Shown: positions 13,174 to 35,310 of the stretch, piece by piece
Layout: each line of letters starts with the position of its first letter
Numbering within the stretch: the first letter of the stretch is position 1
Assembly: GCA_001931875.2 (NCBI GenBank)
Contig: MSJH02000721.1
Coordinates: forward strand, 1 to 40,109
Source of the DNA: Byssochlamys sp. IMV 00236
Taxonomy: Eukaryota; Ascomycota; Eurotiomycetes; Eurotiales; Thermoascaceae
DNA: 40,109 nt
Direction of reading: 5' to 3'
Translations under genes and position numbers: made by a program
Notes under the pieces: model-generated
What the model was told of the DNA's origin: nothing
Databases searched by the model: none
What the model saw: only the letters and a program-made list of their open reading frames with translations

Positions 13174-13681
13174 CTAAGCATCTGTTCCAACTTGTTCGTA
13201 ATTTCTCAATAACTGAAGGAAAATAAGACACGTCTTTATTTTTATCGTCTTTGGATTAAGCAATATTGGTTTATTGCATTGTTTCTTATTATTTTCGTCA
13301 ATTGCAGATAGTATCAACGCTGCTCCCAACCTTATATTTGCTATTTGCTCATCAGTTAAACAGTATGGATTTTCTCTATAAGAGTGATAAGCAGCAAGAC
13401 GATCGGCAATCTCAACTGTTAGATTATCTTGAGACATTGAAAAATGTTTTGTAACAAAAACTCTGTTTTCAGCAGCAGTGTTAATAGCATCAACTTGAAC
13501 AACCGAGTCTAATCTTATGTTGACAGTTCGATTAACAAGGACAACTGAACCATGCGTTTGGAGACTTGCTGACGTGATTATTTCCTGTGTTCAACTTTCT
13601 AAACAAAAAAAAAAAAACTTCACAGATGGATTGCAGGCTGTTGTAGATTGAAATATGCTTAGTCCTTGGGTACACATCATC
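13174..13681 (-). CDS. Hypothetical protein, possible gene or relic
   Basis: On the minus strand an open frame of about 136 codons runs from about 13581 to the stop at 13174. It reads plausibly as protein (for example THGSVVLVNRTVNIRLDSVV and YRENPYCLTDEQIANIRLGA), well beyond the nominal Met at 13437. A preceding acceptor (CACAG) can be joined in frame to a short first exon starting near 13681 (MCTQGLSIFQSTTACNPS), but the intron would be only about 38 nt and contains a 13-T tract. I do not recognise the family. It lies 45 bp downstream of the RING-BRCT stop on the same strand, so it may be a real small gene, a lost exon or a pseudogene. Start and exon 1 are uncertain. Confidence 0.35.
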
Positions 13682-13726: not shown

Positions 13727-15025
13727 TTATAAGCAATAGTCATCTTTTTTTAACAGCTCAAAATTACAAATAGAGTCAAATATCCAACTTTTCAATAACA
13801 AAGTTCGATGTGTAAACCGATCCTTTAGTTCCTGTCTTTTGGATTCAGGATCATCGCTGCAAACAATTACATCCTGGCATGAATCTTCAACAATACCTCC
13901 CCCTGCTAAAATGCACTTTTCCACTTGTCTCTGTAGATCGTCATCTATTATACACACTTTGAGGCCTCTAAACAGGTTTGGTTTCTAAAGGGGTGTGAGC
14001 GACAGGGGTAAGAAGCATGAATCTGTTATACCTTGGCTTCTTTATTCTTTCTGGCCTTTTCAGGAGCGCCTGTTCGTCCCATGTCTCGATCCCCACTAAT
14101 TTCATACCTACTTTCTGGAATGATATGACCTCTCTTTATACAGTTCTCTAACCCTAAATACTCAAGTTATTTCTCTGGATGCATGGGCTCAATACATGCT
14201 TACATTGCTCATTGACGATAAAGCAACCATACAAGATACCCAGATAATAAGTTAAACTGCGATCCACAATGTTATGCTTGTCTGTATCAATGAGTTTTTT
14301 TTCTTTTGGTTTCTTTTATACATTTACCTGCTGGTAATACGATATGAGTTACTTCTGTGTTCATTTTGTCTACAAAGATCATGTTGGGGATATTCAACTC
14401 CTTTTATGATTTATTTTAGCAAAAAAGTGTGTATGTCTATTTAACTTACTGGCTTATGCCCTTTTTTCAATATCTTGCATTCTTTTTCTTGTATTGGCAA
14501 AGAGTTTTCTTGTGCTTGTAGAGCAGCTCTAGCTTGAGCTATAACGAAAAAGGTTATCACGCGTATAAAAAAGAGATATTTAAAAGAACCTTTTTTGATA
14601 TCCAAGGATGTGACCAATGTTTTGTCTTCTTCTGTTGCTGTAACTTGTCATCAGTCATGTTCCTGAAGTATCTTTTTATATTCTTACATAATGAGGCTGG
14701 ATCTATAAAAGGATCGTCTACTTGATATTCTTGCTTTAATTTCATAAACTCATCGATTATAATTTGTATATTGGGCATTGGATGAAGCTGTTTTATAAGG
14801 TGATTGCAAAGTGGACATGTCGATTTTTGTTGCATTTTAGTTTCTATGCATTGTTTACAAAACATATGAGCACATGATATAGAAGTAGGTTGCTTCATGA
14901 GAGACATGCTATTAAAGAAAATGAATAACAATTTATGCAAAGAGCTACTATATATATATATACCAAACTGAGCATTGAAGCTCTCTTTGCATTGCATTCA
15001 ATACACTGTTTGTTGTTGTAGTCAT
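13727..15025 (-). CDS. RING finger + tandem BRCT protein, BARD1/BRCA1-like
   Basis: Predicted E3 ubiquitin ligase of the BRCA1/BARD1 class, 316 residues, nuclear DNA-damage response. Eight exons: 14964-15025, 14688-14908, 14590-14637, 14450-14538, 14328-14400, 14204-14281, 14032-14153, 13727-13984; introns 46-55 nt, all GT-AG, every junction in phase. Residues 18-55 form a perfect C3HC4 RING (C18, C21, C33, H35, C38, C41, C52, C55), assembled across intron 1. A linker of about 70 residues follows. BRCT1 (about 130-212) has NTEVTHIVLP, YYLGILYGCFIV and W191. BRCT2 (about 234-316) has LFRGLKVCI, ILAGGGIVED and LLLKSWIFDSICNFELL (W298). These blocks resemble BARD1 more than BRCA1 as I recall them. 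The ankyrin repeats of animal BARD1 are absent, and the first strand of BRCT1, which carries a phosphate-binding Ser/Thr in canonical pairs, seems reduced. The ATG is 52 bp after the Bub2 stop. Confidence 0.9.
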
Positions 15026-15077
15026 GTATATTTTATTGAAATAATCCGCACAATTTTTTTCAAAAACAAAAAATGCA

Positions 15078-16298
15078 TTATAAATGAAAATCCCTTAAAT
15101 ATGCAGGCAGATCTTCTTCACCTTGGTGCAACTCACTGGCTGTCGAACTAGTAGCAGCAATACCAAGACTATCAGCCACTGATTCATCATAAGCGTGGTA
15201 CACTAGTTTTTGGTAGAGATCAGAAGGTAAGTTCTTGACAAGTACCTTGGTAAGTTCAATGATGTCCTTGGCGCGAAGAGGAGGCAGAACACGAAGTATC
15301 TTGTACGGACTTTGGTTTTGTAGAATGTCTCCACGAATAAGGGCAATTTGAGCAATCACAAATAAAATATTCAAGTGAAGACCATGAGCAAACATATAGT
15401 CCCATAGTTGTAGAAGCTCAGAAAGAGGCGCTGTACAAGCCGAAAATGTCATGATGGCTATAAAAAAAAAAAAAAAAAAAAAAAAAAAGTTGGCTTTCTA
15501 TTGTTATTTAATAAAACACTTACGAGGTAATGCATAGACAGTGGCTGATAGATTCTTTCCACGTAGATAACCATAGAGAGTAGGATCCAGCGAGCGTAAG
15601 CATAATTCAAAAAGCTAATTGAATAAGTAAAACTAAAAAAAAAAAAAAGAATGAAAAAGACTTACACGGATGCCGCAGTGTACGCCTCTCATGGTCGGAA
15701 GAACATAAAGTGGACACCATCTATAGATAAATGTCGAAAATGCAAAAAAGGCATCCATCTCTGGCATGACCATCAAGAAGGGAGCAGCGAGTACATTCAT
15801 ACCTTGCATATACGTAATATTGTCTATGGGCTTATCTGTAAATAGTGTACGAATGCTGTCTATACGAGGATCTAGAATGAAAAATGAGAGAGATCAGTAA
15901 AGATATAAGCCTCTTACCCTTTTCTCCAGTCCAGACAAATGCATTCAGTAATCGAATGAGCATATCCTCGGATACATGTTCTAAAAAGCTAGCATCTGTG
16001 GCCATCGTTCTAAATGTGTCATTACGTATTTTATCATCAAGAGCACTTGGTCCCAGTTCAACAAGATGGATATAGCTTGAGGCAGATATGTTACGAACAC
16101 CAAGTAATAATTTCCATACTTTTTCTCTTTGCTACATATACTGATGAGTATTTTTCAAAAACAAGTGGGGGTTGTATTTACGCCAGGAAGACATGTTTGG
16201 GTGAGTAATGCTTCCTTCAGATCAAAGATACTCTTGATAGTCTCTTCAGGATTTGTATGTTTTCTGGCAAGTATTGATTCAATGGATTCTTGATTCAT
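15078..16298 (-). CDS. BUB2: Bub2/Cdc16-type TBC Rab-GAP of the spindle/septation checkpoint
   Basis: GTPase-activating protein for a Tem1/Spg1-type GTPase at the spindle pole, restraining mitotic exit or septation; 335 residues (yeast Bub2 306). Five exons: 16182-16298, 15918-16131, 15666-15871, 15524-15614, 15078-15457; introns 46-66 nt. The TBC domain shows REKVWKLLLGV at its start, the arginine-finger motif KIRNDTFRT, the glutamine finger in ITYMQGMN, then RWCPLYVLPTMRGVHCG, LDPTLYGYLRG and SPYKILRVLPPLRAKDIIEL. The last exon is the conserved C-terminal part of Bub2/Cdc16. Intron 4 is the longest because its acceptor is preceded by a 27-T tract. It lies between the SOSS-B gene (145 bp upstream) and the RING-BRCT gene (52 bp downstream), all on one strand. 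Confidence 0.93.
15462..15488. repeat. 27-nt A/T homopolymer forming a splice-site polypyrimidine tract
   Basis: On the coding (minus) strand this is an uninterrupted T27 immediately before the TATAG acceptor of Bub2 intron 4. Length variation would change the intron, not the protein. Confidence 0.9.
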
Positions 16299-19785: not shown

Positions 19786-21490
19786 GAAGAAAAAAAAAAA
19801 AAAAAAGAAAAGAAAAAGCCTTGGCTTACCTGTCAACTAGATGAACAAGGGGAACGAAAAAGTGAAATATAATCGAACCAGGAAGGCTTCCTTGCTTTTG
19901 TATTCCATTATTGTACACATTGTGAAACTACCCTTCATTTTGTATGGGAATCAAGTTACACATTCTCTTCTTTCCACACTCGAAACCTTTTAACCGTTTG
20001 ATGCAGTTTTTCCTGAAAGTAATGTCGCATAATTCGGAGATTTATAATACAAAACATGGCTTCTTGAAACGATATTTACTTTCTGGAAAGAGTGTATGAA
20101 TGAGCAGACACACAAAAGCTTGCACAATTTAGCTGTCATCGCTTCTTTGTGACAGAGGCTAATACTCGCTTTGGTCATCTATTTGATCACGTGATGTTCT
20201 GAACACTTATTTAAGATATGCTGACTTTTGACTATTATGAAGAGATAGAGAATAGTCTGGCAATGTTGATGGGTTTGAGTGAGTTAGAAATGGGTACGAA
20301 TTGAGTGAAAGACAGCTGTCTGAAGATTGAGGAAAAATGTCACTTCACCGCGTGTCGATTCAGGCTCCGAATTCGTCTTCAAAATTTAGAGTGTTTAGAT
20401 CTCTCCCTTTTTGAAATGTAATCTCAACAATGATGTTAATTCCAACGTTCAATAACCGACCTTCTCATTCTGAATAAGCCAGTGTAAGCCCACTTGAACT
20501 TAAAGAAATGGCTATTATTATTATTATTATTGTATCCCTTTTTGTTGTAAATACTTGTAAAGTATAAATTGTCTCGCAGTGCAAACAATAAGCTACATTG
20601 AATTGTGTTAATTTGCTTATTAACCACATGATCGAGCCAGTGATACAAGGACTAATTTACACACTCAATTCAAAATTATTGTTGATATATTAACAGTCTC
20701 CTACAATCTTTTGTTAATTGTTTCGTTATTTACTTCACTGTTTGTGTGTGAAATCAGACTGTGATATGTTGTAATATCTTTGCTCGACAGCTCCATATAT
20801 CCCAGACAAGCATGAATCTCGTCAAAGAAAACTCTTGTTGACAATTGGTCGATAGAGTATACACACACATAATTTATTAGCTGAAATAAAAAAATGGTGG
20901 CCCAATTAGTTTAGTAAAGTTGACCCATTCAACAAACTCGTATTTTTCAGACTGGCTTTCGACACGTGGATCATTTTTTTAATAACCTTACTCGTTTTAT
21001 ATTATTTGATTCATCCACTGTTTTTTTTTTTTTTTTTATTTTTTCCTGTGGAGATGTTTTGTACGCCTGGATGACATGACCTTTTAACAAGCGATGCGGT
21101 TTCTAAAAATACGAAGTTGGTTTTGATTGGCTGCAACATTTCCTGAGGACTCTAAAAAGGTTGCATAAACATTTCTTGTTACATAAAAACTATTTGTCAG
21201 AAAGTACACGGTATTAAAAACAAGGAGAGAATGGGTCACTATTGACACAACGCTTTCTTTTTTTTTTATTTGTCCCCGTTGAGAACTTGTCTTCTTCCTT
21301 TTGAATCCCAGTTAACCCAATAAAAGAAAAGTATGAAAAAATAGGGGGCGTATTTACACGTTGAATACAGTCGTGTCATAATCTATGTAGATGTACGCTA
21401 TGTGTCTGTCTGTGTGTTGTTTGTTTTGATTTCTTTTTTCTTTTTTTTTTTTTTCCTTTTATCTCTTTCTTATCAAAAAAAAAAGAGTTG
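19786..21490. other. 1.7 kb gene-free interval between divergent genes
   Basis: Shared upstream region of the methyltransferase (minus) and the CENP-B-like gene (plus). No gene supported: frames at 19990-20178 and 20436-20648 are low-complexity or lack similarity. It contains an ATT-triplet run at about 20515-20531 and T-tracts near 21020 and 21430-21470; the last is the pyrimidine-rich leader of the plus-strand gene. Confidence 0.5.
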
Positions 21491-22350
21491 ATGCCAAGAT
21501 ATTACGTACCTGATCGATCCAAAAGACTCAATAAGAACTTTACACTTGTCCAAAAAGCACAAATCATTGACTATATGGAAAAGACCGAGGGCATAACCCA
21601 AGTGGCTGTCACCAAATGGGCGCAAAAGCAGTTTGGTCTGGTTGCACCACCTACGCAGTCAACAATCAACAAGCTATGGAAGTTCAGACACAAGTATGAC
21701 GTAAAGGCTATCCTAGAAGGAAGCCTCTGTGGTGGGGTTGACCGTAAGACGCTACGAAAGTCCAAATATCCTGAGCTCGAAAAGCTTCTTATCGATGACA
21801 TTATCGATTGTCAAAAGCAGAATGTTCCCTTGAGTGGGAATAGGATCAAGCAGATGGGTGAAAATATCTGTCGATTCGATCTTAAATTGGATCCTGAGTC
21901 TCCCAATTTTCCTTCCTTTTCGAACGGTTGGTTTGAACGGTTCAAGAAAAGACACGGTCTGACGATTGACATGGTCGGTGGTGAGCCTAGTTATGTCGTC
22001 TCTCAGCGTTTGCATTCTTTGGATACGGCTCATTCTATAAACCAAGATGATCAGCTAGAATCATCAGAAGGTAAGCCATTTTTTTTTATATATCCTTATG
22101 TTACTCAACCATAATAGAGAGTAAGCCAATAGGAAATGAACCGAATGATACCACTAAAGAAGACCTTAAAAGAAAAGAAGCCATGCTTGACGCTCTACAC
22201 ACGATAATGAAATATCAGTCTTTCTTTGGAACTGAAGAAGATGCTAAATTCTATGATTCTTGTCAAATAATGTATGAAAGAATAAGAAAAGATGATGAAC
22301 AACAGCCACAAGGCAAACAGAAGAAATTGACAGACTACTTTCAATCATAA
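21491..22350 (+). CDS. CENP-B/pogo-type DNA-binding protein with C-terminal PIP box, no DDE domain
   Basis: 270 residues; exons 21491-22070 and 22118-22350; intron 47 nt (GTAAGC..TAATAG). The in-frame TTG at 21488 is not the start. Residues about 13-65 form a CENP-B N-terminal helix-turn-helix (FTLVQKAQIIDYMEK..). Residues about 85-157 form the second, Tc5/CENPB-type HTH (YPELEKLLIDDI, then NGWFERFKKRHGL). These are the two DNA-binding units of pogo/Tigger transposases, CENP-B and fission-yeast Abp1. The roughly 250-residue DDE nuclease that should follow is missing: after about residue 165 there is only an acidic linker, a short helical block and the end. The C-terminus QKKLTDYF (261-268) is a canonical PCNA-interacting peptide (Q-x-x-L-x-x-aromatic-aromatic). 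Inference: a domesticated DNA-binding protein linked to replication forks. Confidence 0.85.
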
Positions 22351-30459: not shown

Positions 30460-32820
30460 ATGGCAAAGAAAGCAGCACCTGTAAAAAAAGTGAATCAAAA
30501 GCAGATCAAGCGAGCTCAAGAAAAAGATGACTTGACTACACTCGAATCAAAAGCTTGTCAACCTGTAATTATTTCATGGCTTTAGAAAAAAAAATATTTA
30601 TACTTGTTTTAATTAGGAAAACTACAAGGACTGTAAATTATTTGAAGAATTGCCCATTTCAGAAAAGACAAAGAGAGGATTAACTCTATCCAATTTCAAA
30701 ATGATGACCGAGATTCAACGGAAGGGCATTCCTTTAGCCTTGGCCAAACGAGATGTCCTTGGTGCAGCCAAGACAGGCAGTGGCAAAACACTTTCCTTTC
30801 TTATTCCAGTAAGAAACCTTTTTTTATTTTATCTATTTATCTAATTGTTATTATGTAGGTCTTGGAAATTCTCTTCCGTCAGCAATGGAATTCAGCAGAC
30901 GGTCTAGGAGCACTTATTATTTCACCCACTCGAGAACTTGCCGTTCAAATATTCGAGGTATTGAAAAAGATTGGCAAGAACCATACGTTTTCAGCTGGTT
31001 TGATCATTGGTGGAAAAGAATTCAAGGTCGAACAAGAACGCATCAGTCGGATGAACATCTTGGTATGTACACCTGGTCGATTATTGCAACACATGGATCA
31101 GTCAGCTGGATTTATCTGTGACAATTTACAAATCTTGGTACTGGACGAAGCTGATCGTATCATGGACATGGGATTCCAAAACACAATGAATGCCATCATT
31201 GATAACTTGCCCAAACAACGACAGACGTTGATGTTCTCAGCCACTCAAACACGATCCGTTAAGGATCTCGCTCGTCTTTCCCTCAAGGACCCCGAGTACG
31301 TCGCGGTTCATGAAAAGGCTGAATACAGTACGCCCAAGACACTATCACAGCATTACGTCGTGGCTGAGTTGCACCAAAAGCTTGATATTCTCTATTCGTT
31401 CATCAAGACTCACTTAAAGACAAAGATGATTGTGTTCCTATCGAGTTGTAAACAGACTCGATTTGTCTATGAGTCGTTCTGTAAGCTTCAACCTGGTATA
31501 CCCATCATGCACTTGCACGGTAAACAAAAACAGACAAAGCGTGTCGAGATCTTTAAGCGGTACACGTCCAGTCAACATGCGCTCTTGCTCTGTACAGATA
31601 TCGCCGCTCGTGGTCTCGATTTTCCTGCTGTCGATTGGGTCGTTCAGTTAGACTGTCCCGAGGACGCCGAGACGTATATTCATCGCGCAGGTCGTACGGC
31701 TCGATTTGATGCAGAGGGCCATGCCTTGCTCATCTTGGTGCCCTCAGAGGTAGAAGGCATGATCGAAGAGCTCAAAAAGAAACGTGTGCCAATCGAGGAA
31801 ATCAAGATTAGAACAAGCAAACAACAGACAATTCAAAAGCAGTTGCAGAGCTTCTGTTTCCAAGACCCAGAGATAAAATACCTCGCACAAAGAGCCTTTG
31901 TGGCTTACATGCGATCGATCTATCTTCAAAAGAACAAAAAAATCTTTGATGTCAATGCTTTGCCTGCTGAAGAATTCGCCCATTCCCTTGGTCTGGCTGG
32001 TGCACCCAAGATCAAATTTGTCAAGAAGGCAGAAAAGAAAAAGATGGGTCCAGTGAAAGAAGAAGAAAGTGATCAAGAACAAGAGCAAGAGCAAGAACAA
32101 GGAGTCAAGACCAAGTATGATCGTATGTTCCAACGAAAGAACCAAGATATCCTTTCAGAGCATTATCATAAGCTGGTCGATTACGAGAATGATAAGCTCA
32201 ACGTGCATGAAGATGAGGACGATGAGGACTTTTTGACAATCTCCCGTAAAGATCATGCGTTAGAAAGTGATAATGAAGAAGAAGATATTACAGGAGTAGC
32301 ACAAGAAAATATATCCAAGCGAAAGCAAAAGATGACAAAGAAGGATAGGATCAAGAATATGCCTCGTGGTGAAAAGATTGTTTTTGATGAAGAAGGAGAA
32401 GCACACGCTTTATATGAACTTGCTACTGAGCAAGACTTCTTGAAGGAAGGCGATGTTAAGGATCAAATCAAGGCATTTATAGATGAAAAGGGACAAGAAA
32501 TGCAACAGGCTGATGTTGAAGATAAAGAGCTTGTGAAACAAAAGAGACTTGAAAAGAAGATTAAGCGAAAGGAAAGAGAGAGAGCTGAAAGGGAAGAAAT
32601 GGAAGGAATAGAAGGACATGAAGAAGAAGATGAAGAGATGGAAGAATCTGAAGAAGAAGAAGAAGAAAGTGAAGAAGAAAGCGAAGAAGAGAGTAGAAAG
32701 AGATCTTATGACAGTGAAGAAGAAGAAGAACATACAAACAAGAAGAGAGTCATTGATGTAGAAGAACCATTAACATTAGAAGACCAAGAAGCTCTTGCAC
32801 TGAAACTCTTGGGCAACTAA
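30460..32820 (+). CDS. DBP4: DEAD-box RNA helicase Dbp4/Hca4 (DDX10)
   Basis: Nucleolar ATP-dependent RNA helicase for 18S rRNA maturation and U14/U3 snoRNA release. 752 residues; exons 30460-30564, 30617-30808, 30859-32820; introns 52 and 50 nt. The N-terminus is basic ([20 protein letters not shown]). The Q-motif region is [16 protein letters not shown]; motif [10 protein letters not shown] (86-93 region); PTREL; TPGR; motif [14 protein letters not shown] (D195-D198); SAT; then [11 protein letters not shown] and the terminal HRAGRTARF. The Dbp4-specific extension follows ([40 protein letters not shown]), then a long Lys/Glu-rich tail with poly-Glu blocks around residues 690-735, as in DDX10. 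Divergent from Yippee. Confidence 0.97.
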
Positions 32821-32919
32821 ACAAGCATTAATTATTATTATTTTTTTGTCTAATAAATTCAACACATGCATTACACCCAATTGTGGCTTATTTAATCATT
32901 GTTTTTCTTTTTCTTCTCA

Positions 32920-33381
32920 ATGTCAAATGAAGATCATGTTGCACTTTCTCAGCATGCATTAAACCTAGAATTAAGAACACATCCTATCCGTGGACGTGGC
33001 GTGTTCACCAAAGACTTTATAAAACGCAACACACTTGTGGAGATCTCGCCTGTTCTGTTCTTTGATGCTCAAGAGTATGACACACACGGTAAATATACCA
33101 TACTGGACCACTATACCTATGTATGGCAAGGAGGATATGCGCTGGCGCTTGGACTTGGATCTATGTTTAACCATGATAATAAGCCTAATGTTGGGTTTAT
33201 TCGAGATATCCCAAACAAGTTGATTCGATATGTTACCTTGCGAGATATCGAACCAGAGGAAGAGTTGTGTATATCTTATGGCAATCATCTTTGGTTTGAG
33301 ACTGAAGAGGATAAAAAGGAGCAAGTGTCTGAAGATGAGCATGAGCCATTGCCTTTTTGCGACGATGAAGAAAGTTTATAA
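32920..33381 (+). CDS. Small SET-domain protein
   Basis: Intronless, 153 residues, a compact SET fold with little else; probably a protein lysine methyltransferase of unknown target. Signatures: RTHPIRGRGVFTKDFIKRNT (N-SET), LGLGSMFNHDNKPNV (the NHS/NHD pseudoknot motif, here FNHD), RDIEPEEELCISYGNHLWF (the ELxxxYG motif). No pre- or post-SET cysteine cluster. The tail is acidic. Met at 32920 was chosen over the in-frame ATG at 32899, which would add a Phe-run encoded by the T-tract of the leader. Only 99 bp follow the Dbp4 stop, same strand. Confidence 0.9.
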   Translation: MSNEDHVALSQHALNLELRTHPIRGRGVFTKDFIKRNTLVEISPVLFFDAQEYDTHGKYTILDHYTYVWQGGYALALGLGSMFNHDNKPNVGFIRDIPNKLIRYVTLRDIEPEEELCISYGNHLWFETEEDKKEQVSEDEHEPLPFCDDEESL

Positions 33382-34160
33382 ATAAAATGAGAAGGCTCTC
33401 ATTTAAATATCTTTGTTTCTGTGTGTGTGATAAAGAGGTGTTTTTTAAAAGTGAATTCATTCTGTAAATGTATCAGTTTGCTACTGATAAGCATCGCCTG
33501 ATACAGAATTCCGCTTGTGCAGCAGTTTTTTTTTTTTTTTTTTTTTTTGGAAAAGAAGGTGCTAATCCGCAAAAAACTTGAATGGTTAAGAAGGGTTTGA
33601 TTACACCAATTTCTATTTTGATTGGCAGGTTAAGGATTTGAATACACAGAGAAATTCTTGGTTGGAAGTCATACTTGTTCCAATCCTCATTGCCTCCGTT
33701 CCAAGCTCCGATGAGGTGGTAAAGGCTCTTTCGTGCCACGCTTTATTTTCAGATAACAATATATAATAAAAAATTTTTTTTCCAGTTCCTATTTCTTCAG
33801 ATCTTTGAACGCACTTAACGCATTTTTTCTATTTATCTTGGGATGGGAACAAAAGCGAAGACAGTCAGCTGAAAGTTGAAGGGCGGGTGACCACCTCATC
33901 TTCTCCTTCCACTTTGGCAACTGTTTGATTGGGCAGATCAAAAATCTGGGATGCAATTTCCCAAAATCTTGATTTTTAAACGCAAAGCGCTGTAGTTGCG
34001 TGGTACGAAAATTTTTTTATCCTTTTTGTAAAACAACGAATCACTTTACTTTTTTTTTATATTTATATATAAATTACAACCCTTCTCTCTTTCTTTTTCT
34101 TTCCATAGACCTTTTTTTTTTCTTTTAGTCTCTTTTTTTTTTTTTTTTTTAAAAAAAACG
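33382..34160. other. Intergenic, upstream of SLC35F-type transporter
   Basis: No gene seen. It has T23 at 33526-33548 and a series of T-tracts at 34046-34150 forming the pyrimidine-rich leader before the ATG at 34161. Confidence 0.5.
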
Positions 34161-35310
34161 ATGAGCAACGACGAAGAATCATCAACAAAAAAGAGTTGGA
34201 AGCAATACTTTGCTTTTCTTAAAAACCCAAACTTTTACAAGGTTTTATTCTTGGGCCAATGTAAGTCTAAAATAAAAACATGTAGCCAACAACTCATAAC
34301 AAATCATAGTGTTGTCTCTTTGTATTACTGGTACAAATGTAACAACAACCATATTGGGTAGTCAATACGGATTCAATGCACCTACAACACAGACCTTTTT
34401 GGTTTATGCCTGTTTGGCCATTGTTTACAACAGTTATGCGATCTATAAACGTGGCCTCAAAGGATGGTTACTTCAATTCTGGAGACGAGGTCACATTTAT
34501 TTCATTTTGGGATTCATTGATGTGGAAGGAAACTATTTTGTTGTCAAATCCTTTCAGTACACTTCACTTTTATCTGCCATGTTGCTCGATTGCTGGAGCA
34601 CGCCCGTCTGTATGATCCTCTCTTACTTTTTCCTCAAAGTCAAATACCGATGGCTTCAGTTCCTCGGAGTCTTTATTGCTCTTTGTGGTCTAGGCATGTT
34701 GGTCGCAAGTGACGTGATCACCGGTAAGAACTATGGTGCTGTCAATCCAGTCAAGGGCGATCTCTTCTGCTTGCTTGGCGCAACACTTTATGGCTTCTCT
34801 AATGTCGGCGAGGAATACATGGCTCGAAAGCACCCACTTTATGAAGTCATTGGCATGTTCACTTTCTTTGCTACCTTTATCAACCTCGTTCAGATCTTTA
34901 TCTTTGAACGCGAGGAGTGGGCAGCATTTGCTGATCATCAGATCACAGGCATGGTTATCACTTATACCATCTGTATGTTCATTCTCTACTCTTTGGCACC
35001 TGTCATGTTCCGTCTCGGAAGCGCACTCTTATACAACTTGTCTCTCTTAACCAGCGACTTTTACGGTCTCATCTTTGGCCTTGGTTTGTTCGGATACAAG
35101 GTCACTGTGCTCTATCCATTTGCCTACGTTGTCGTTATCATCGGTATTGTCATCTACCACGTCTTCCCTGCACCCATGCCTGGCATTGGTGATTTCACGC
35201 CTGAATTGGCCGAGAAGGAAAGAAGGGAGTTATTCTATGGTAGACAGAATGATGAAGAACAAGGAGAGAAAACTCTAGATGAGCAGGTCAATATAGAATC
35301 TAAAGCTTAG
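34161..35310 (+). CDS. SLC35F1/F2-type solute carrier (DMT superfamily)
   Basis: Multi-pass membrane transporter of 366 residues; exons 34161-34260 and 34310-35310; intron 49 nt. About ten hydrophobic segments in the EamA/DMT arrangement follow a cytosolic N-terminus (MSNDEESSTKKSW). SLC35F hallmarks: YFILGFIDVEGNYFVVKSFQ, YTSLLSAMLLDCWSTPVCMI, then GDLFCLLGATLYGFSNVGEE (internal repeat) and LYNLSLLTSDFYGLIFGL. The tail is polar and acidic. Substrate of fungal members is not established; related human proteins have been linked to queuosine-type or other solutes, which I would not extend to this protein. Confidence 0.93.

Follow-up and report, generated by a model that had tools for sequence, protein, structure and literature searches.

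The window (the whole 40,109-nucleotide stretch analysed here, positions 1 to 40,109 of contig MSJH02000721.1, assembly GCA_001931875.2, deposited as Byssochlamys sp. IMV 00236) encodes on its minus strand a protein of 316 residues in which, according to the predicted splice model, an N-terminal RING finger and a C-terminal tandem BRCT are joined in one polypeptide, the layout of the BRCA1/BARD1 family. On the evidence of its sequence the protein is a member of this family, ordinary in kind and unusual for its very small size. Its most likely place is on the BRCA1 side, and it is considered probable that this BRCA1-side RING-tandem-BRCT protein pairs with a predicted BARD1-like protein encoded on a second contig of the same assembly (C753) as a DNA-repair ubiquitin ligase heterodimer. 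The initial annotation of the window had described the protein as BARD1/BRCA1-like; the family assignment stands, and within the family the BRCA1 side is the more likely one.

The eight predicted exons of the gene splice in phase into 316 codons and a stop codon, with all seven introns bounded by GT..AG. Residues 17-55 match the Pfam RING model PF13923 (40.9 bits; cut-off 27), and the C-terminal part matches BRCT_2 (30.7; cut-off 27.3) and BRCT (27.5; cut-off 21.3). Splicing and Pfam analysis agree with the eight exons, 316 residues, RING and two BRCT repeats given by the initial annotation, and the blocks quoted there, YYLGILYGCFIV and SWIFDSICNFELL, are found in the protein. The weakest splice site is that of intron 3 (donor GTTCTT; 51 nt, in frame), and leaving this intron unspliced gives a seven-exon alternative of 333 amino acids. 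The eight-exon model was kept, and the reading of intron 3 as coding sequence rejected, because the 17 extra residues are absent from the gene models of the relatives Rhizopus microsporus (P0001) and Rhizopus arrhizus (P0003). Judged by the letters, the gene is apparently real and intact.

A search of 5.8 billion proteins returned six homologues with E values from 3.6e-192 to 2.8e-50, which places the match beyond chance; the named sources are R. microsporus (two), R. arrhizus, R. delemar and Gilbertella persicaria. In the predicted model of P0001, which is 97% identical to the window protein, the tandem BRCT is structurally nearest to BRCA1/BARD1, and BRCT1 lacks helix alpha1 between its strands 1 and 2. 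Domains, homologues and structure match uphold the earlier claim that a fungus has a RING-tandem-BRCT protein of the BRCA1/BARD1 family; as had also been said, this protein has no ankyrin repeats and is much smaller than human BARD1. The deposited R. microsporus models appear damaged: P0001 begins in exon 2, and its RING annotation is weakened because the first two RING cysteines are lacking, while P0002 apparently reads through introns 1, 5 and 7. A protein put together from another BRCT family (Brc1/Rtt107, MCPH1 or DNA ligase IV) and a RAD18-like RING is highly improbable. BRCTs grouping with Rtt107/Brc1 beside a RAD18-like RING, the contrary outcome named by the initial annotation, was not seen where it was tested: Brc1/Rtt107 fits the BRCTs less well and is not the best structural match, the RING is present, and the 19 Pfam matches at E<=1 include neither a UBZ nor a SAP domain of the RAD18 kind behind it. 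An Rtt107/Brc1 or RAD18 origin was rejected on these grounds.

The gene had been taken for a lone one, and this was rejected since the assembly holds a BARD1-like gene on C753. Of the 21 matches from a protein search of the assembly, eight are parts of the window gene, twelve are single RINGs elsewhere and one is a weak BRCT on C753 (E 0.124); at the same place on C753 Pfam BRCT_2 detects the second BRCT (E 1.5e-5). The gene found there has five exons (4350-2760, minus strand) and encodes 465 residues in the order RING, W-C-C-N-C-C zinc finger and tandem BRCT; no ankyrin family was seen among its 15 Pfam matches at E<=1. Its product has 19 homologues: 16 named Mucorales proteins, two further proteins of this type, and P0025, a BARD1 of animal type that has ankyrins. 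The genera represented are Rhizopus, Sporodiniella, Mucor, Parasitella, Pilobolus, Thamnidium, Helicostylum, Gilbertella and Mycotypha, the order Mucorales having been checked for nine species, one per genus. The zinc finger pattern, which is RanBP2/NZF-like, is present in 17 of 18 relatives, with the Pfam RanBP2 model below its cut-off of 27 where it gave any score (17.5 and 16.6).

It is very unlikely that the window protein acts mainly as a RING homodimer or solo, as a self-sufficient short BRCA1/BARD1 protein. The completeness of its RING and the helix behind the RING in the P0001 model would allow such a role; against it stand the BARD1-like gene in the same assembly, the presence of both gene kinds among the search matches for R. 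microsporus, R. arrhizus, R. delemar and Gilbertella, and the fact that known BRCA1 RINGs work as heterodimers. A wide profile search (101 matches listed from 7,993 scored candidates) gave, among the matches listed, named organisms that were all animal or plant, together with P0025, P0078, P0113, P0120, P0121 and P0123. It missed the fungal proteins of its own query and is uninformative on the spread of the pair in other fungi.

The assembly itself (47.4 Mb, 840 contigs) appears to combine the DNA of two organisms. GC content at 20 loci was 35-39% in nine, including the window contig (C718) and C753, and 47-53% in eleven, so that C718 and C753 contrast with, for example, C823, C837 and C800. 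Both have Rhizopus-like GC content, and the best matches for both genes are in R. microsporus. BRCT genes with identical scores occur on C398/C399 and on C334/C335/C337/C507, and some stretches of the assembly may therefore be present twice or more.

Placement of the window protein on the BRCA1 side begins with its RING, which is of BRCA1 type by sequence and by the length of its first loop: 11 residues, where the BARD1 type, and the C753 protein with it, has 12. The introns were compared with human exon ends derived from the variants listed for BRCA1 (PMC3519833) and BARD1 (PMC6877745), and the positions given below hold for the junctions that these listed variants define. Intron 1 interrupts the codon of the second RING cysteine (C21) in phase 2, as do BRCA1 c.80/81 (C27) and BARD1 c.158/159 (C53), and intron 6 cuts W191 as T/GG, as do BRCA1 c.5152/5153 (W1718) and BARD1 c.1903/1904 (W635). 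BARD1 codons were mapped on whale BARD1 (P0052), and the human BARD1 residue numbers are those we take to apply or are shifted from that protein. Intron 5 lies in D165 in phase 1, aligned to D1692 at BRCA1 c.5074/5075; neither the BARD1 junctions checked, the nearest of which (c.1810/1811, codon 604) is several codons off, nor the C753 gene offers an equivalent. Exon 6, between introns 5 and 6, is 78 nt long, as is BRCA1 exon 18. Intron 7, in phase 0, falls at the position of BARD1 c.2001/2002 and lies three codons away from BRCA1 c.5277/5278 in an alignment next to an indel. The match of intron 4 (phase 0) to BRCA1 c.4986/4987 is uncertain, and introns 2 and 3 fall in the unalignable linker. 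In the C753 gene, four out of four introns are at BARD1 positions (c.158, c.215, c.1903 and c.2001), and the two fungal genes agree in the position of three introns and in an exon of 122 nt. Rough chance values, assuming 900 sites, are 1.8e-5 for at least three of five in the window gene and 2e-9 for all four in the C753 gene.

In the tree of RING and BRCT together, the window group joins human BRCA1 with support of 95/89. This tree had 25 rows, taken from 27 RING and 34 BRCT rows after omission of those without a RING or a BRCT piece; P0020 was left out of the BRCT set as its model lacks the inter-BRCT part, and of the 'animal BARD1' rows without an organism name (P0025, P0120 and P0123) the combined tree includes P0025 alone. 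Several results weigh against placing the protein beside BRCA1. The trees held a single animal BRCA1, and the approximately unbiased (AU) test rejected none of four rival groupings (p 0.080-0.147): window group with animal BARD1 (0.080), with fungal BARD1-like proteins (0.082) or with plant BRCA1 (0.090), and fungal BARD1-like proteins with plant BRCA1 (0.147). When human BRCA1, a long branch, was removed, fungal BRCA1-like proteins and plant BRCA1 separated from the BARD1 groups at only 61/37. In the BRCT-only tree, the grouping of the window proteins with human BRCA1 had support of 68/80 and was flagged for a long branch, and the RING-only tree did not resolve the fungal BRCA1-like RINGs among human BRCA1 and unrelated RINGs. 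A BRCT profile comparison, which covered three profiles and no animal BRCA1, scored the fungal BARD1-like profile highest (208.8), ahead of animal BARD1 (162.4) and plant BRCA1 (107.0). On the same side stand the RTxK motif of the phosphate pocket, found in none of five fungal BRCA1-like proteins (of seven, with P0002 and P0004 outside the census), and the positions contacting the ubiquitin-conjugating enzyme (E2), which we take to be I26, L63 and K65 in BRCA1 and which are V20, L54 and N56 in the window protein. The case for the BRCA1 branch therefore draws more on RING, introns and structure than on the BRCT sequence.

These results could also reflect a fungus-only duplicate pair, descended from one BARD1-like (or pre-split) ancestor, in which the window copy is merely BRCA1-like. 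Forcing the two fungal groups together costs the 7.2 log-likelihood units behind the AU value given above for that grouping, the fungal BARD1-like profile is the best fit of the three tried, and the intron positions and exon length shared by the two genes would follow from such a duplication. The RING loops, however, differ in length just as those of BRCA1 and BARD1 do, the D165 intron matches a BRCA1 junction in the absence of a counterpart among the BARD1 junctions checked and in the C753 gene, and the combined tree groups the window proteins with human BRCA1. A fungus-only duplication is accordingly rated as unlikely, and a BRCA1-side origin of the window protein is preferred.

In humans, BRCA1 binds BARD1 by way of helices next to the two RINGs, and the pair ubiquitylates H2A in nucleosomes. 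A helix is present behind the RING in the P0001 model, and the BARD1-like protein of R. arrhizus is modelled with helices on both sides of its RING (2-11 and 65-82; mean predicted local distance difference test score 72.4). By analogy with the human proteins, the window and C753 proteins would pair through these RING-side helices, and the heterodimer would move ubiquitin onto chromatin, nucleosomal H2A being the human substrate. TG and RTxK pocket residues are found in all 18 fungal BARD1-like proteins, several of the proteins in this census being from the same species, and phosphate-binding K1702 of BRCA1 aligns with T175 of the window protein. Because the pocket is intact in the BARD1-like proteins and RTxK absent from the BRCA1-like ones, reading of phosphopeptides would fall to the BARD1-like subunit. 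As the sole keeper of these residues and the bearer of the RanBP2/NZF-like finger, which may bind ubiquitin, this subunit would also account for most of the recruitment, and the window protein would contribute its RING to the pair, together with a further BRCT module unable to read phosphate. The BARD1-like RING may bind the E2, given I16, V51 and K53 at the contact positions of the C753 protein versus the residues of the window protein. The intact pocket of the C753 protein, its isoleucine at the BRCA1 I26 position and a finger of ubiquitin-binding type in place of the ankyrins led us to a further and tentative proposal, for which the odds are somewhat against: a role reversal in the Mucorales, in which the BARD1-like protein leads, reads and perhaps catalyses, and the BRCA1-like protein has shrunk to an accessory RING-BRCT scaffold that has given up phosphopeptide reading, the two forming the smallest natural complex of this kind.

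To our knowledge, work on BRCA1-BARD1 has been confined almost wholly to animals and plants, whose two proteins are both long. With about 316 and 465 residues, a Mucorales pair would allow the role of the RING-BRCT core to be told from what the long regions add, would test the need of BRCA1 for its phosphopeptide pocket, and could make a tumour-suppressor enzyme tractable in a far smaller natural form. The shared introns would place the BRCA1/BARD1 split before the parting of fungi and animals, with later loss in yeasts. The family had been described by the initial annotation as mainly an animal and plant one; BRCA1 homologues of early-diverging fungi, including Rhizopus, are already published (PMC11061109, PMC12818731). 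In its available sections, the first of these papers lists BRCA1/FANCS among the Fanconi genes of early-diverging fungi, reports its expression in Mucor, Lobosporangium and Rhizopus delemar, and has fungal sequences clustering with animal references for 30 of 32 Fanconi proteins, the exceptions being SLX4 and FANCJ; its main text does not contain 'bard1'. The available sections of the second describe disruption of 'brca1' (JGI 1897364) in R. microsporus with reduced fitness in hosts, and its main text contains neither 'ring' nor 'bard1'. Should JGI 1897364 be one of the two genes described here, they would supply the anatomy behind that fitness effect (PMC12818731). In the parts available, PMC8483008 finds no fungal BRCA1 orthologues in databases and disagrees with PMC3969565 on fungal BRCA1. 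A literature search on BARD1 with early-diverging fungi, Mucor or Rhizopus found no paper on a Mucorales BARD1 (Rhizopus matches being judged by title and start of abstract). As far as checked, what is new is the description of the whole RING-BRCT architecture, of a BARD1-like partner, of introns in common and of a phosphate pocket that has been lost unevenly.

Table 1. Predicted exons and domains of the BRCA1-like gene, in window coordinates
Feature	Position	Strand	Content
Exon 1	14964..15025	-	Start codon, N-terminal segment, first two RING cysteines
Exon 2	14688..14908	-	Remainder of RING and helix behind RING
Exon 3	14590..14637	-	Linker
Exon 4	14450..14538	-	Linker and BRCT1 strand 1 (about KECKILKKG)
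Exon 5	14328..14400	-	BRCT1 strands 2-3
Exon 6	14204..14281	-	BRCT1 core; 78 nt, between D165 and W191 codons, both phase 1; cf. human BRCA1 exon 18
Exon 7	14032..14153	-	BRCT1 end and inter-BRCT linker; 122 nt; length and phases same as exon 4 of C753 gene
Exon 8	13727..13984	-	BRCT2 and stop codon
RING finger, residues 18-55	14806..14974	-	Split by intron 1
BRCT1, about residues 131-225	14050..14479	-	Split by introns 4-6

Upstream of the gene, an open frame on the same strand ends with its stop codon at 15078-15080. The gap to the start of the gene is 52 bases (15026-15077), and the promoter must therefore be very short or lie inside the neighbour. Just downstream, on the same strand, is an open frame of 138 codons (13177-13590, minus); neither this frame nor a 106-aa piece of the upstream one gave a Pfam match. 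Elsewhere in the window are an open frame of a DDE_3 transposase (40-1494, minus), a Tc5-type transposase DNA-binding domain (21365-22114, plus) and, at 30859-35310 (plus), neighbouring genes for a DEAD-box helicase with an SPB4-type end, a SET-domain protein and an SLC35F-type transporter. A search of a plasmid collection gave no match.

Among known systems, the named Mucorales BRCA1 homologues are 'brca1' of R. microsporus (JGI 1897364) and BRCA1/FANCS of early-diverging fungi, as given in the available sections of PMC12818731 and PMC11061109; JGI 1897364 may be the window gene, the one on C753 or a different BRCT gene. Plant BRCA1 (BREAST CANCER SUSCEPTIBILITY 1) resembles the window protein in its 11-residue RING loop (8/8) and tandem BRCT and differs in its length of about 790-1030 aa and in keeping RTLK; its BRCT profile is the least similar to that of the window group among the three compared. 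The middle of the plant protein holds further zinc-finger domains. Animal BARD1 shares with the C753 protein a 12-residue first RING loop, a tandem BRCT with an RKP block and, at the junctions defined, the four introns, whereas its ankyrin repeats have no match in the C753 protein, which carries the RanBP2/NZF-like finger between RING and BRCT instead. Human and other animal BRCA1 proteins are closest to the window protein, with an N-terminal C3HC4 RING, an 11-residue first loop, a C-terminal tandem BRCT, three exact intron positions and the 78-nt exon (exon 18) among the junctions defined, and the best structural match. They differ from it in their long disordered middle, the window protein having 316 residues with only about 75 between RING and BRCT, a BRCT1 modelled without helix alpha1, T175 in place of K1702, and a region opposite S1655/G1656 too diverged for a sure alignment.
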